Source: Candidatus Pacearchaeota archaeon
Lineage (GTDB): Archaea > Nanobdellota > Nanobdellia > Pacearchaeales > GW2011-AR1
Length of the DNA stretch: 35,042 nt
Reading direction: 5' to 3'
NCBI GenBank assembly: GCA_018303785.1
Contig: JAGVXM010000040.1
Coordinates: forward strand, 1 to 35,042
The position numbers and the translations under genes were made by a program. Shown here in pieces: positions 8,539 through 19,148 of this stretch (the first letter of the stretch is position 1; each line of letters opens with the position of its first letter). Below the pieces are notes generated by a model. The model had not been told where the DNA came from and made no database searches. It saw only the letters and a program-made list of their open reading frames with translations.

Positions 8539-8939
8539 ATGGAAACACAATTAACCTTTAGCGGAAGCTCTGTTGGAGCAAATAAAAAACACATTCAGCT
8601 GACACCAAAATATCGGTATCATATGATGCAAAAAGAAAAAATAAATATTTTTTGCAAAATTTCAATTGAAGAAGCATGCAAGCGACACAAGATAGAAATT
8701 ATTATTTTGAAAGTTCTGCCGAATCATGTCCACTTGATTGTGAACCTGACGCTATGCTGATGTGGATAATCAAAGGATTGTCATCGTACATTTTTTTTCG
8801 ATTGTGTCCAGCGTTGCGAAAGCGATATCCCGACGGACATTTCTGGACAGAAGGATATTTTTGTGCGAGTTGTGGCAGTGATTTTGAAAGAGCTTTAAGA
8901 TATATCAAGGATCAAGAGATTCATCATGGCTTCGCATAA
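8539..8939 (+). pseudogene. tnpA: IS200/IS605-family TnpA, copy 2, frameshifted
   Basis: METQLTFSGSSVGANKKHIQLTPKYRYHMM...LKVLPNHVHLIVN in one frame, MLMWIIKGLSSYIFFRLCPALRKRYPDGHFWTEGYFCASCGSDFERALRYIKDQEIHHGFA in another; 16 bp missing relative to copy 1. Confidence 0.88.
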
Positions 8940-9015
8940 ATGTGAAGGACGCCGTCCTCCACCGCAGTGGATTTTTTGCCACAGCAAAAAACCTTTAGGG
9001 ACGGGGGATGTCACA

Positions 9016-11238: not shown

Positions 11239-11571
11239 TCAATTTTTTAAGTAAGTACATAACTCATTTACTATGCTAATAAATTTTGTTTGTTTTAGCG
11301 AACCGACTTTGTACTTGACCATTGATTTTTCAACAGAAAATATTTTGTCTAATCTTAGATAACTTTCAACTTTCAAGCTTCCATTTTGAAAATCTTCTTT
11401 CTTAATAGGTATCTCGACAGACTTTTCGTATGATTTTCCTGTTATTTGACAAACAATTAAATCATCTCCTTTCGGAATTTTGATTATTAAAGAAGGCCTT
11501 CTTTTAGAATTGATAAAATTTGAAAAAGGAAATTCTAGAATAACTACTTTTCCTTTTACAAATCCTTCCAT
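11239..11571 (-). CDS. MazF/PemK-like toxin
   Basis: [43 protein letters not shown]; overlaps AbrB antitoxin gene. Confidence 0.75.
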
Positions 11572-11774
11572 ATTTCATCTTCTTCTTTGTTCATCCACGT
11601 TTTTGCCAAAGATTTCTCTGACCAAAGAGCTGTTTCAGAAATTAATTTTTTTAAGATAATCTCATCATCTTTTCTAATGACAATTAATTTATCTCCCTCT
11701 TTTATATCTTTTCTCATATCTAAAGGAATAACTACCTGTCCCCGTGAACTCATTTTTATTTTATCAATTTGCAT
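11556..11774 (-). CDS. AbrB/MazE-fold antitoxin
   Basis: MQIDKIKMSSRGQVVIPLDMRKDIKEGDKLIVIRKDDEIILKK. Confidence 0.85.
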   Translation of the reverse strand: MQIDKIKMSSRGQVVIPLDMRKDIKEGDKLIVIRKDDEIILKKLISETALWSEKSLAKTWMNKEEDEIWKDL

Positions 11775-13717: not shown

Positions 13718-13803
13718 ATATTATTATAAGACTACATTGTAAAGTTAGCGGTTGGTAAGGAACAGAAATTAATAAATAGTTTAGTTTTCTTATTTTATTC
13801 ATT

Positions 13804-14025
13804 ATGATGCCTAAAAAAACAAAATGCGGGAGATGTGGAAAATTTGGAGAAGTTACGTGGGCTAATTATATTCCCTATTGCAAAGAATGTCTTGCGGAAA
13901 AAAGCAAAGGAGCGATACCATTTGAAGAAGCCCTTTATCCAGAAGAAACTACAAAAAAAGAGATTAACGATTTGAAGAAAAGAATACTGAAATTAGAAAA
14001 TGAAGTTAAGAAATTAAAGAAATAA
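13804..14025 (+). CDS. Zinc-ribbon plus coiled-coil small protein
   Basis: KCGRCGKFGEVTWANYIPYCKECLAEK...NDLKKRILKLENEVKKLKK. Confidence 0.65.
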   Translation: MMPKKTKCGRCGKFGEVTWANYIPYCKECLAEKSKGAIPFEEALYPEETTKKEINDLKKRILKLENEVKKLKK

Positions 14026-14104
14026 ACAATTAATTAATAAGTTAGGAAATGAAAAAATTTGGGAAAGTTTAAAAGATATGAAAAACTAATAGTTTTAATT
14101 GAGG

Positions 14105-14150
14105 CATTAGGGAATCCACCTGCTTGGAAAGAACAGGCAATTCCCTAATG
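14105..14150. repeat. Large stem-loop between converging genes
   Basis: CATTAGGGAAT (14105-14115)/ATTCCCTAATG (14140-14150), inner CCTG (14119-14122)/CAGG (14134-14137). Confidence 0.8.
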
Positions 14151-14176
14151 TTGTGTCCTTTTCTCACATATGAGCA

Positions 14177-15289
14177 TTATAATGTCCTTTGAATTTCATT
14201 AGAAATTGGATTGACTTTGTTCAAAAATACATTCCAACCAGCATAATTTTTCATAGTTTCAATAACATTTCTTTTAGATAATAAAATTTTATTAATTAAG
14301 TTTAAATCCTGCTGTTGTAAATGATGATTAATCCATCTTATAGAATCATAACTATTTAGTCCCTCACTTACAGCTATTTTTTCCATAAAATTATCTGTTA
14401 AACTAAATCCATGCCATTCTTTTTGAGAAAGAGATTTTGTAAATTTTTTTTCTTTAATGTCGTATAAGAAATAGTCACTTATTTTTTTGTTCATCATATT
14501 TTCTACTGATTCTGGGGACATAGTTCTTGGGAAATGTGCCTTTTCAGAAAAAATATCTCCTGCAAAACAGCAATAAGCAAATGAACCAGCAATATAAGAA
14601 TGGTTCGTTAGAATCTTATTATAATCCAAATAAACAATCAAAGAGATATTATCTCCAATATTAAAAGAGGAATTTAGTGAATTTACTATAGACAAATTTG
14701 TTTTCTCTATAATATTACTCATTCCATAAGAACAGATACCAATTAATTGGGAGTGTTTTAATTCATATTTTACTAATCTTGGAAATTCATCAATATTAAG
14801 ATGCTTAGATGAAAATATGGGAATTAATTTTTGATTTTTTTCAAGAGATTTAATTGCCTCTTCTCTTTTGATTTTCCATTCATCAAAAGAAGCATTTAAA
14901 GGAATACAATAAGGAACTAATTTAGATTTTGATTTTAATTCCTGAAAATCTTTTTTTGTCTCATTCCAATTTAATTTATTCCATAATCCTTCATTTCTCT
15001 GTTTATATGGGATAAAAATTCTATTGTATTTTTCAGAATGTTCTTTTGCTTTTTTTAATCCCTTAAATTCCCATTCTTCCTCTTTACTATCCCAATTTAT
15101 ATGAAATGTTTGAAAAGGAGAACTTAAAACAGATTTTCCGTGATTCAATCTTTTTTTTTCACAAGAATAAATACCATTTGAAACAGATAATATCCTATTA
15201 AAAAATTCTCCATTGTCTGTGATAATTCTTTTTATCACAAATCTCGATTCTTTGTCTACTAATTCAACTTTTACCTCTTTAATTTCCAT
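14177..15289 (-). CDS. Uncharacterised 370-aa protein, candidate effector
   Basis: Intact ORF; overlaps upstream wHTH gene by 11 nt; no family recognised. Confidence 0.6.
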   Translation of the reverse strand: MEIKEVKVELVDKESRFVIKRIITDNGEFFNRILSVSNGIYSCEKKRLNHGKSVLSSPFQTFHINWDSKEEEWEFKGLKKAKEHSEKYNRIFIPYKQRNEGLWNKLNWNETKKDFQELKSKSKLVPYCIPLNASFDEWKIKREEAIKSLEKNQKLIPIFSSKHLNIDEFPRLVKYELKHSQLIGICSYGMSNIIEKTNLSIVNSLNSSFNIGDNISLIVYLDYNKILTNHSYIAGSFAYCCFAGDIFSEKAHFPRTMSPESVENMMNKKISDYFLYDIKEKKFTKSLSQKEWHGFSLTDNFMEKIAVSEGLNSYDSIRWINHHLQQQDLNLINKILLSKRNVIETMKNYAGWNVFLNKVNPISNEIQRTL

Positions 15290-15542
15290 TGTGCACTAAT
15301 TCCTTCATAATTATATTTGGTTCTTTAAGAGTATAAATTTTTTTCCTCATATCCTCTTTACTTGGTTTAATTTCTATCCATTCTGCTTTTTTTAATTCAT
15401 TCAAAAAAACACTAATAGTGTTCCTATCATCCATGGGGCTTAACACTTTTTCTATCATATCAAAAGTTAGCTCCTTTGAATTATATTTTTTCCAAATTCG
15501 TGAAACTCTTTCCTGAACCCATTTTGGTATTGGCTTTGCCAT
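15279..15542 (-). CDS. Small winged-helix-like protein
   Basis: IPKWVQERVSRIWKKYNSKELTFDMIEKVLSPMDDRNTISVFLNELKKAEWIEIKPSKEDMRKKIYTLKEP, helix-turn-helix then wing-like pattern. Confidence 0.5.
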   Translation of the reverse strand: MAKPIPKWVQERVSRIWKKYNSKELTFDMIEKVLSPMDDRNTISVFLNELKKAEWIEIKPSKEDMRKKIYTLKEPNIIMKELVHNGN

Positions 15543-15617
15543 GTGCTAACCTAAGCAAATAGCTATTTAAAAATCTTTTGTAAAATTTTAATTAAAACGA
15601 TAGATTTTTAAGGATGT

Positions 15618-15656
15618 GTAGGTATTAAATATTATTAAATACAATTTAATACCTAC
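15618..15656. promoter_or_regulatory. Operator-like inverted repeat upstream of AbrB-like gene
   Basis: GTAGGTATTAAAT (15618-15630), 13-nt spacer, ATTTAATACCTAC (15644-15656); ends 1 nt before ATG. Confidence 0.65.
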
Positions 15657-15657
15657 T

Positions 15658-15810
15658 ATGGATTATGAGAGTTATTTTGATGCCAAATTAAGGAAGAATG
15701 GAAATTCCTTAATTATCACTATACCGACGGAAACAATTGAAAAATTAAATTTGAAATTAAATGACATTCTTGAAATAGCGTTAAATAAAGCCAAGAAAAC
15801 AAAAAAATGA
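15658..15810 (+). CDS. SpoVT-AbrB-like DNA-binding protein (absent from ORF track because short)
   Basis: MDYESYFDAKLRKNGNSLIITIPTETIEKLNLKLNDILEIALNKAKKTKK*. Confidence 0.7.
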   Translation: MDYESYFDAKLRKNGNSLIITIPTETIEKLNLKLNDILEIALNKAKKTKK

Positions 15811-16031
15811 ATTTTTGGAATAAACATGATTTAATAGTAATGAATACAAGAGAAAAGATAATTTTACTTAAAGAAGAATTTAATAAGAAAAATGGAAATG
15901 ATATTGAAAATTATAATAAAAGATTAAATAGTTTTTTAGATAGAAAATTGAAAAAACAATCTGAAATAATTTTAAAACAGCAAATACTATTATCTATGTT
16001 TTTCTTATATTCTCAAAACCGAAAGGTTTAA
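15807..16031 (+). CDS. Small hypothetical protein, overlaps AbrB-like gene
   Basis: MNFWNKHDLIVMNTREKIILLKEEFNKKNGNDIENYNKRL...; start overlaps preceding stop (ATGA). Confidence 0.5.
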   Translation: MNFWNKHDLIVMNTREKIILLKEEFNKKNGNDIENYNKRLNSFLDRKLKKQSEIILKQQILLSMFFLYSQNRKV

Positions 16032-16078
16032 ATACATTAGTTATTTACTAATGTAATAATATTAAGTAAACATTAAAC

Positions 16079-16099
16079 CGCCTCCGAAGAGGCGGGTTA
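16079..16099. repeat. GC-rich hairpin upstream of transposase
   Basis: ACCGCCTC-CGAA-GAGGCGGGT, strong stem in an AT-rich region. Confidence 0.65.
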
Positions 16100-16112
16100 T
16101 CCACTCGCTAAA

Positions 16113-17066
16113 ATGAATAACACAAATAACAAAAAAATCAAGTATAAAAATATAACGTGTTTTAATTGTAGCTCTGCAAATACGATTAAATGGGGAAAGA
16201 GAAAAACTGAGAACAGAGGAGAAATACAGAGATATAAATGTAAATCTTGTAACTCCTATTTTACTCTTGACAATGGTTTTTTCAGAATGAGAAACACACT
16301 ACAGAAGATAACTCAATCAATAGACTTATTTTATAGAGGAGTAAGCACAAGAAAAGTGCAAGAGCATTTAGCCATATTTCATCCGCACAACGCCTCACAT
16401 ATGAGCGTTTATAATTGGGTTGTGAAATATGCAAAAGTGATAAGTAAATTTACCAATAAATTAAAAATCAATGTCGGAACAGAGGCACAAATTGATGAGA
16501 TAGAATTTCATAGAAGACAACACCATGAAAAAGGAATGAAAGGAACAGAGAAAAACTTTTTTATTGATAGCATAGACCCAGAGACCAAATTCTTAATTTC
16601 TTCTGAATATTCTAAGACAAGAGGAAGCCAGAACATTAAAACAGTAGTAAAGAGAATAAAAGAAAAAACGGATAATCAAATTCAGATGGCTACAACTGAC
16701 GGATGGAATGCTTATGGAAAAGTCATTAAGAAAATCTGGGGCTACAATAACAAATTAGGGCGTTACAATGTTTTTCATAACAGGGTTATTGTTTCAGAGA
16801 AAGATGAGACTTTTAATTATCCTATTGAAAGATTGCATAATAACGTAAGGGCAAGAACAAAAGTAATGAGAGGTTTTCATGGAAGTATAAACTCTGCAAA
16901 CGCTATTATGAAGGGTTACGAGATTTATTATAACTTCATAACTAAACATCAACAGATAAAATGCTGTCCTTATGAGTTGGCTATCCCTGAATTAGCAGAA
17001 ACACTAAAAAACACCAAAAACAGATGGCTCGGTTTAATCTATCTTACAAAAGAGGCAAGTTTATAA
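16113..17066 (+). CDS. Zinc-ribbon DDE transposase (IS6/IS240-like; exact family unresolved)
   Basis: N-terminal CFNCSS...RYKCKSCNSYF; AQIDEIEFHRR / TTDGWNAYGKVI / YPIERLHNNVRARTKVMRGFHGSINSANAIMKGYEIYYNFITKH. Confidence 0.85.
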   Translation: MNNTNNKKIKYKNITCFNCSSANTIKWGKRKTENRGEIQRYKCKSCNSYFTLDNGFFRMRNTLQKITQSIDLFYRGVSTRKVQEHLAIFHPHNASHMSVYNWVVKYAKVISKFTNKLKINVGTEAQIDEIEFHRRQHHEKGMKGTEKNFFIDSIDPETKFLISSEYSKTRGSQNIKTVVKRIKEKTDNQIQMATTDGWNAYGKVIKKIWGYNNKLGRYNVFHNRVIVSEKDETFNYPIERLHNNVRARTKVMRGFHGSINSANAIMKGYEIYYNFITKHQQIKCCPYELAIPELAETLKNTKNRWLGLIYLTKEASL

Positions 17067-17068
17067 AA

Positions 17069-18319
17069 ATGAAAAAACATAAAAGATTAAGGAAAAAAAG
17101 AATGGAAAATAAATCTGAAAATGTAAGTTTTAGAAAGTTAGTAAATATACCTTCTACTACGCATGCTACATTTGGATTGTATAGATACCCTGCTAAGTTT
17201 ATTCCGCATGTTGTAGCTTATGTTATGGAAAATTATGCAAAAGAAGGTATGTCTATATTTGACCCATTTGGCGGCTGCGGAACGACAGGTATAGTTTCAA
17301 GGATTTATGGACATGATTATGAATTGTGGGATTTGAACCCGATTATAAAAATACTTCACCAAGTAGCGATTATGAAACCTGTCAATATTAATTCTGAAGA
17401 AATAATAAAAGAAATGAGAGATAGCAAAAAGGAGTTTATTCCTAATTGGTCTCGTTTAAGTTATTGGTATCCGCAAGAATTTTTACCTTTTCTCTATAAG
17501 GTCTGGGGATACTATCACTCTTTTAAAGATAGTGAAGAAAAAAATATTTTGGTTGTGCCATTACTTAAAATTTCAAGATATTTCTCTTATGATGATAGCC
17601 AACGCCAAAAACTTTCTAAATCTACAAGGTCGCAAGATAAGATAAAAGAGTTATTAAAATCAGATTGGCAAAACATATTTTTTGAGATGCTCAAAAAAGA
17701 GATAAATAAAGTTATCATAGGTATTAAAGAATACTCTGAAATGTCTCCCAAAAATGTAAAAGCAGTTATTAGGGGGGGCGTTGATTCTCTGGGAGAAACC
17801 TTAAATAAAAAAAGAGACATTCTCATAACTTCCCCGCCCTATATACAATCACAAGAATACATGAGGCAAGCAAAATTAGATTTATTTTGGCTGGGTTATA
17901 CGGAAGAAGATATAAAGAAATTAAGTAAATTAGAATTGCCTTATAGACATATAGAACCAATAGAAATACACTCTAAAACATTTTTTGAATATCGTAACAA
18001 GATAAAGGGTAAGCATATACAAGAAGTGTATGATAAATATTTTTGGAGTATCTTAGGACTTTTCACGCAATTACAGAAAGATATTAATTCACGAATGTTT
18101 ATTTTTGTTGGTAACACAAGTGCGGAAGGAATTAGCATACCTTTAGACAGAATTATTATTGAACATTTGGAAAACTTTGGATGGGAACATGAGATTACCT
18201 TAATAGACACTATTGTAAGTAGAAGGTTATTTTCATATAAAGTAAATCCAGCATCAGAGAGAAAAGACAAGAGAACAAATGTTGAAAATTTGGTTATTCT
18301 GAAAAAAATAAATAATTAA
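17069..18319 (+). CDS. DNA N4/N6 methyltransferase of an R-M system
   Basis: YPAKFIPHVVAYVMENYAKEGMSIFDPFGGCGTTGIVSRIYGHDYELWDLNP (motif I) and ITSPPYIQSQEYMRQAKLDLFWLG (motif IV). ORF open from 17024. Confidence 0.85.
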   Translation: MKKHKRLRKKRMENKSENVSFRKLVNIPSTTHATFGLYRYPAKFIPHVVAYVMENYAKEGMSIFDPFGGCGTTGIVSRIYGHDYELWDLNPIIKILHQVAIMKPVNINSEEIIKEMRDSKKEFIPNWSRLSYWYPQEFLPFLYKVWGYYHSFKDSEEKNILVVPLLKISRYFSYDDSQRQKLSKSTRSQDKIKELLKSDWQNIFFEMLKKEINKVIIGIKEYSEMSPKNVKAVIRGGVDSLGETLNKKRDILITSPPYIQSQEYMRQAKLDLFWLGYTEEDIKKLSKLELPYRHIEPIEIHSKTFFEYRNKIKGKHIQEVYDKYFWSILGLFTQLQKDINSRMFIFVGNTSAEGISIPLDRIIIEHLENFGWEHEITLIDTIVSRRLFSYKVNPASERKDKRTNVENLVILKKINN

Positions 18320-18813
18320 GGAATTTGTTTATCAAGATTGCTTAAAAATACATTATTCCAATTAAGCAGAATATCCCAATTATTTTTTAATAATTGTATT
18401 TTGCTCGTTGCTCGTGATGTTCCCCATTTTTGTATAAATCTCGTGGGTATTAAATAAACATCAAGAGTTTTTCTGTCTATTCCTAAAATAATATCACTAT
18501 GACTTGTATTATATTTGTAAGTTTTAACTCCTGATTTATATTCTCTATCAATCCCGCCACGACTACCACCAATAAAAGAAATGCTTGTATCAATTGTCTT
18601 AACTTGGGCTCTTAATACGATTTCTTTTCCATTCGGGTTTTCAAAAGCTATAATAAATAAGTCATAAGGCGAACCACGAATATCAACAAAGCCAACAATA
18701 AAACCCAATCGCATCAATATTCCTGAAACAAGATGCTCATGTGCATCCCCCAGATTAGCCGCAATTTTACCCGTAGGTAAATTTGTTACATTCATATCTG
18801 TTATTTTACCCAT
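18316..18813 (-). CDS. Probable type II restriction endonuclease, PD-(D/E)XK-like
   Basis: DAHEHLVSGILMRLGFIVGFVDIRGSPYDLFIIAFENPNGKEIVLRAQVKTID: D...(A)QVK catalytic pattern; convergent with methyltransferase. ORF open to 18855 from TTG. Confidence 0.65.
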   Translation of the reverse strand: MGKITDMNVTNLPTGKIAANLGDAHEHLVSGILMRLGFIVGFVDIRGSPYDLFIIAFENPNGKEIVLRAQVKTIDTSISFIGGSRGGIDREYKSGVKTYKYNTSHSDIILGIDRKTLDVYLIPTRFIQKWGTSRATSKIQLLKNNWDILLNWNNVFLSNLDKQIP

Positions 18814-18917
18814 ATGAAAGTAAAGAAAATCCAACCTTTTAACCTTTTCCACCAACCGCTAACTTTACAATGTATTATAAAACATAACTTTATTAATCCT
18901 TTTTTCTCTTTTTTAAT

Positions 18918-19148
18918 ATGGCTATTAACATCGATAAAGAAAATTTAGAAAAGGCATTGCAAAAAACAGTGGAAACAGAACAACCTCCAATTTCAAAGGA
19001 AGAAGAAATTGGATTTCATAAAGGAGCATTGAATACATTATTGGCAGAGCGAAATGAATTAATTAAGATAATCGCAAACGTTGAAGCAATAATGCAAGCA
19101 CATTTGAAACGATTAGGAGAACTTGGAGTTACGACTCAGAAGAATTAA
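18918..19148 (+). CDS. Small conserved-looking helical protein
   Basis: MAINIDKENLEKALQKTVETEQPPISKEEEIGFHKGALNTLLAERNELIKIIANVEAIMQAHLKRLGELG. Confidence 0.6.
   Translation: MAINIDKENLEKALQKTVETEQPPISKEEEIGFHKGALNTLLAERNELIKIIANVEAIMQAHLKRLGELGVTTQKN

Follow-up and report, generated by a model that had tools for sequence, protein, structure and literature searches.

A single-transposase cargo transposon with a putative restriction–modification cassette and its promoter-associated relatives in DPANN archaea

The stretch of Candidatus Pacearchaeota DNA analyzed here (35,042 nt, hereafter the window) contains, at positions 13733–18874, a unit of approximately 5.1 kb that is bounded by perfect 24-bp terminal inverted repeats (TIRs) and a target-site duplication (TSD) and encloses one DDE transposase. 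We are highly confident that this unit is a single-transposase cargo transposon with a restriction–modification (R-M) cassette aboard, and that it belongs to a DPANN (Nanoarchaeota) family that is aimed at promoters and swaps its cassettes. With one transposase, its own TIRs and TSD, and passengers inside, it has the organization of a cargo-carrying unit transposon (tIS).

Element boundaries and the family of related elements

The TIR, TACATTGTAAAGTTAGCGGTTGGT, was found without mismatch at 13733–13756 (+ strand) and 18851–18874 (− strand), exactly where the first-pass annotation of this DNA had placed it. Within three mismatches, these are the only two copies in the window and in the whole 874-kb genome, and the repeat appeared in 0 of 100 shuffles of the window even when three mismatches were allowed. 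The abutting sequences, TTATAAGAC on the left (13724–13732) and TTATAAAAC on the right (18875–18883), neither of which is assigned a strand, differ at one position (8/9 identity). They had been read as a target duplication, and this reading is supported by the relatives, which make a 9-bp TSD.

A contig scan identified transposase homologues in 47 of the 180 genomes assigned to the GTDB family and in 37 of 327 genomes sampled in the phylum, all labelled as the same class or nearer. No relative was found in viral contigs. At 29 loci, both ends were set by TIR and TSD; the arms matched at 18–24 of the 24 positions, and the shared end consensus was TRCATTGTTRCNTTAAMGGKWGKT. These discovery elements were partly chosen on their TSDs, and a perfect 9-bp TSD was present in 25 of the 29, compared with 0 of 812 swapped flank pairs; position 10 matched in just 12 of the 29, setting the TSD length at 9 bp. 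Among 12 further elements defined by the TIR alone, and thus unselected for the TSD, seven had a perfect 9-bp TSD, as did 11 hold-out elements from other families and one more found later. Together, the set comprises at least 53 elements in DPANN genomes (29, 12, and 12 hold-outs; 1993–7820 bp, median 3877 bp) that have the transposase, the 24-bp TIR, and the 9-bp TSD in common. One of them, L004, is delimited by the identical 24-mer; its transposase is 84% identical to that of the window, and its 9-bp TSD is perfect. A second, contig-truncated relative with an N6/N4 methyltransferase (L049, G000:C47:7500–17290) occurs in the genome from which the window derives.

The first-pass annotation had proposed a true transposon that carries the R-M system as its passenger, and this is borne out by the TIR shared with L004 and by the dozens of elements with the same ends, TSD length, and single transposase but other cargo, often R-M. 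The precise promoter targeting and the cassette exchange described below go beyond that annotation. The alternative, in which an ordinary R-M island is flanked by two copies of a common regulatory sequence and not by transposon ends, can practically be dismissed: both copies do lie near gene starts, but there are only two in the genome, and TIR, TSD, and transposase occur jointly at over 50 loci whose cargo is unrelated.

Insertion sites and host promoters

The insertion sites were mainly intergenic, and their distances to start codons clustered. Insertion inside genes was rejected because the joined flanks showed practically no split host genes, and this pointed to promoters. When the flanks are read from the TSD outward, AAANNTTTAWAAAC is found at a fixed position on one side. 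In 26 of the 39 elements, the motif TTTAWA begins precisely 5 nt past the TSD (binomial P = 7e-46), whereas none of the other offsets between 0 and 80 had it in more than three. The rule was fixed before the elements of other families were fetched, and in these hold-outs the strict +5 TTTAWA was present in 10 of 12 (P = 8e-18); a TATA-like match at +5 was found in all 11 of the first hold-out set. Approximately one third of the elements depart from strict TTTAWA, although most of these are still TATA-like at +5. The commonest start-codon position is +34/+35 (0-based) after the TSD, and among 381 host ORFs of these loci TTTAWA is most frequent between −29 and −27 relative to the ATG. Because the TATA-to-ATG spacing of the host ORFs equals that of the inserted sites, the +5 motif corresponds to the host BRE/TATA promoter. 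Insertion occurs in both orientations, with the transposase pointing toward the promoter in 17 cases and away from it in 22. Integration thus looks to be directed to archaeal promoters at a fixed position. A sigma-70 promoter scan, which does not apply to archaea, remained at chance level, and transposases of the PF01609 (IS4) type were excluded as a control for target choice since their elements could not be delimited.

In the window, the element splits a divergent promoter. A host BRE/TATA promoter (ATAAC TTTATTAA; 18884–18896, + strand) adjoins the right TSD, in agreement with the family target motif and with host promoter spacing, and the targeted gene, which encodes 76 amino acids (18918–19148, + strand, start codon at 18918), keeps its TATA box (18889–18896). 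This box, TTTATTAA, is a weaker match to the motif. On the left, the DUF4256 gene retains just 15 nt ahead of its start. Elsewhere in the genus, the orthologous 76-aa genes have TATA promoters that are not interrupted by any element. An exact empty site, suggested as a check in the first-pass annotation, was not found: the joined flanks of the window element, like those of L004, had no contiguous match in the respective genera. Some targeted genes in the family appeared tRNA-Leu-like by eye (L004 and L112); ARAGORN did not call them.

We propose that the transposase would bind the 24-bp ends and, by the chemistry expected of a DDE fold, insert everything between them at a cut staggered by 9 bp. 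With the 9-bp target directly upstream of the BRE/TATA, the downstream gene retains its core promoter. The site would be recognized either via the TBP/TFB complex or as BRE/TATA DNA itself. For the first of these, in which the transpososome of a modular, R-M-shuttling DPANN family docks on TBP–TFB at the BRE/TATA and inserts the element beside it at a constant spacing, we put the chances at only a little below even. A TFB gene is present in the window genome. For the second, in which the transposase prefers an A/T-rich DNA motif (AAANNTTTAWAAA) without any transcription factor and promoters are hit as carriers of that motif, the chances are appreciable but somewhat short of even. The motif is sharp and begins directly after the TSD, and sequence preferences are frequent among transposases, for example ISH6 (PMC3942029). 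On the other hand, a few targeted promoters have a degenerate TATA, which fits a protein receptor better and is not decisive. It is very improbable that the pattern arose by selection only, from random insertions that survived just upstream of promoters. The genomes are indeed compact, with 79% of the joined flanks coding, and the insertions are mostly intergenic; however, selection predicts no single offset, since an element placed another 10–100 nt upstream, or behind a gene, would do no more harm, whereas a single base position recurs in 26 of the 39 sites and other offsets in three at most.

In a more distant relative (L055, 5396–9851; 26% transposase identity), the 9-bp TSD is followed by AAAGCTTAAAAAG, which suggests that the preference for promoters predates the family.

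Genes, cargo, and cassette exchange

The transposase (16113–17066, + strand; 317 aa) had been described as a zinc-ribbon DDE enzyme, and profile matches agree. It scored above the cut-offs of the IS240-type DDE domain (PF13610, 30.3 bits against 27) and of the N-terminal zinc-binding domain of the IS1/IS1595 type (NF050000, 31 bits against 28), and its catalytic residues D128, D196, and E239 were invariant in an alignment of 26 relatives. It fell below the cut-offs for the IS6 family (NF033587, 67 bits against 125), the IS1 family (NF033558, 33 against 100), and the Mutator type (PF00872, 14.5 against 21), and no IS1595 DDE model was among its Pfam and NCBIfam matches at E ≤ 0.1. We place this transposase between IS6 and IS1. 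In a Foldseek search of the PDB, the AlphaFold model (pLDDT 80) matched ISCth4 of the IS256 group best, followed by other DDE enzymes, with low TM-scores; these matches of a predicted structure confirm the DDE superfamily and no finer placement.

A stem–loop, CCGCCTC-CGAA-GAGGCGG (16078–16095, + strand), lies in the transposase leader. Similar CGAA-loop hairpins occur approximately 13–32 nt upstream of the transposase start in the window and in L004, L042, L095, L097, L102, L113, L137, L139, and others. Their stems vary in sequence yet remain paired, with 27 compensatory cells compared with 7 in shuffles, a comparison that is biased because the hairpins were picked by pairing. No Rfam family matched the hairpin above threshold. 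It may regulate the translation of the transposase. In elements that lack it (L088, L090, L116, and L120), an operator-like inverted repeat surrounds the transposase's own TATA box.

The cargo is arranged as cassettes that flank the transposase. The left cassette contains the two-gene operon and the AbrB-like regulator already recognized in the first-pass annotation. The operon (− strand) encodes a 370-aa protein without an assigned function (14177–15289; no Pfam, NCBIfam, or PADLOC match) and an 87-aa winged-helix-like protein (15279–15542) with weak MarR/MsvR matches, which are 87% and 90% identical, respectively, to their counterparts in the cargo of element L102. The regulator is an AbrB/MazE-like DNA-binding protein of 50 aa (15658–15810, + strand) that matches PF04014 above the cut-off; it forms an operon with a 74-aa ORF (15807–16031, + strand; 81% identity in L102). 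Nearest the left TIR is a small ORF absent from the first-pass annotation (13804–14025, + strand), which encodes 73 aa with a zinc ribbon and a coiled coil, as judged from its sequence, and has no family match. A conserved zinc-ribbon ORF of 46–60 aa adjoins one TIR in at least 18 of the 53 elements (L005, L012, L016, L096, L097, L099, L103, L110, L112, L119, and others), and other elements have small AbrB or RHH proteins in the TIR-adjacent position. All three kinds are candidate regulators or targeting factors.

To the right of the transposase lies a predicted Type II-like R-M pair. The N6/N4-type DNA methyltransferase (17024–18319, + strand) matches the PADLOC model MTase_II over its full length (1e-30), which confirms the methyltransferase named in the first-pass annotation, and contains FGGCG and SPPY motifs. 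Its first ATG lies inside the overlap with the transposase gene, and the ATG at 17069 is also a possible start. The neighboring gene encodes a PD-(D/E)XK-like nuclease, a putative restriction enzyme of 165 aa (18316–18813, − strand), convergent with the methyltransferase so that the stop codons overlap by 4 nt (18316–18319). For this nuclease, the earlier assignment is supported in part: a PYD...QVK motif is visible by eye and in another archaeal family, too, it is paired with a methyltransferase, whereas no Pfam, NCBIfam, or PADLOC model matched it. Structure prediction of the nuclease alone gave no usable fold (pLDDT 37). Only one homologue was found in 371 genomes of the phylum (genome G290; 56% identity), again convergent with a methyltransferase homologue of the same family and with the same stop overlap, and no TIR was found within that 20-kb stretch. 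Because the G290 pair is likewise convergent and has no TIR, nuclease and methyltransferase form a conserved unit that also occurs independently of the transposon. The pair in the window is very likely a genuine R-M cassette that the transposon most likely captured. It is improbable that the methyltransferase is solitary and merely lies beside an unrelated nuclease-like gene. The missing match to any restriction enzyme model and the failed fold prediction would fit a solitary enzyme, but the sole homologue repeats the arrangement outside any transposon, and the same slot holds an MvaI/BcnI enzyme in L084 and an MjaI enzyme in L093 and L103. Between the stand-alone pair (L163, 9251–11091) and the window pair (17024–18813), the nuclease is 56% identical and the methyltransferase just 24%, the opposite of what would be expected. 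The 4-nt stop-codon overlap of convergent cargo genes is also seen in L004, L005, L084, L093, L103, L108, and L163.

DNA methyltransferases are present in at least 25 of the 53 elements (about half). Profiles for four classes (N6/N4, C5, D12, and Eco57I) detected them in 22 of 41 elements but gave a single hit in the 418 kb of flanks to which they were also applied; since these profiles were built from element proteins, the independent Pfam model PF01555 carries more weight. By manual count in 33 genomes (~29 Mb), 14 of 34 genes with a strong PF01555 match (E of about 1e-35 or better) lie in elements or contig-truncated copies, which make up ~0.6% of the DNA of those genomes. Identifiable restriction enzymes include HinP1I (L011), MjaI (L093, L103, and L135), and MvaI/BcnI (L084); L048 carries a Type I-like/IIG system, and L134 and L135 carry further N6/N4 systems. 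Non-defence cargo comprises ABC transporters with binding proteins, glycosyltransferases, a WbqC protein, a flavoprotein/aldolase gene, and a Fic protein.

Pairwise comparisons show that elements swap the cassettes to the left and right of the transposase. The window element and L102 share 84–88% nucleotide identity over 14064–16032 and 55–70% over the transposase, with nothing beyond, and the R-M system aboard L102 is of the D12 type. With L004, the window element has only the transposase in common (78–89%). L004 and L084 are 84–94% identical from the left end into the transposase, but the match stops abruptly near its stop codon, past which they carry different R-M pairs. The transposase gene is the part that stays constant, and recombination there and at the common ends would most simply explain how cassettes change partners.

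From the sequences, we infer that the element may transpose actively and that the pair in the window would have restriction activity. We also infer why R-M systems dominate the cargo: such cassettes probably persist by defending the host and punishing their own loss. Both properties are established for R-M systems in general.

Elsewhere in the window, 1–316 and 8700–9000 are two copies (85%) of what appears by eye to be a frameshifted IS200/REP-associated transposase gene, and 1538–2094 and 11239–11774 read as two toxin–antitoxin-like pairs with AbrB-type antitoxins.

Comparison with known systems and implications

The transposase resembles IS6 (IS240/IS26) enzymes in its DDE domain, which exceeds the PF13610 cut-off, and in a similar catalytic E-x6-R/K motif. 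IS6 elements are common in archaea and have an 8-bp TSD, ends of ~14 bp, and a length of ~0.8 kb, and a review of the family names a single passenger-carrying member (PMC7986276, Varani et al. 2021). The new family differs in its 9-bp TSD, 24-bp ends, and length of 2–8 kb with cargo. With IS1/IS1595, it shares the N-terminal zinc-binding domain. IS1 makes TSDs of ~9 bp, and some IS1595 members carry passengers. Nevertheless, the window transposase is far below the IS1 model cut-off and has no IS1595 DDE match.

The closest behavioural precedent is found in bacteria, where the DDE elements TnGBS/p-MULT insert 15–17 nt upstream of the −35 of sigma-A promoters and, where their inverted repeats are near-perfect, in both orientations (PMC3942029, Guerillot et al. 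2014). Both groups thus insert at a fixed distance upstream of promoters, but the bacterial elements use a Mutator-superfamily transposase, whereas here an archaeal BRE/TATA abuts the TSD and the transposase belongs to another group. The yeast retrotransposon Ty3 integrates at TFIIIB-bound tRNA genes, guided by TBP-based promoter complexes. It invites comparison with the elements located by tRNA-Leu-like genes, although TBP/TFB would be only a putative guide in the present family. Tn7-like transposons carry interchangeable defence cargo at chosen sites (PMC8649781). The archaeal family likewise has swappable defence cargo and chosen sites, but Tn7-like elements depend on several Tns proteins and on one particular attachment site, whereas here one transposase and generic promoters are found.

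Passenger-carrying composite DNA transposons have been stated to be undetected in archaea (PMC6563490). No archaeal transposon targeted to BRE/TATA was reported in the literature searched, whose coverage is incomplete and no proof of novelty; within it, the family is previously undescribed. Passenger-carrying transposons are now shown in DPANN archaea, where they offer a physical vehicle for the movement of R-M systems, and ~40% of the N6/N4 methyltransferase genes with strong matches across the 33 genomes belong to the family. It provides a single-protein archaeal system in which to study how transposases find promoters, and a potential tool for inserting DNA upstream of genes while leaving the genes unbroken. 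If docking on TBP–TFB is true, it would be the archaeal counterpart of Ty3/TFIIIB targeting.
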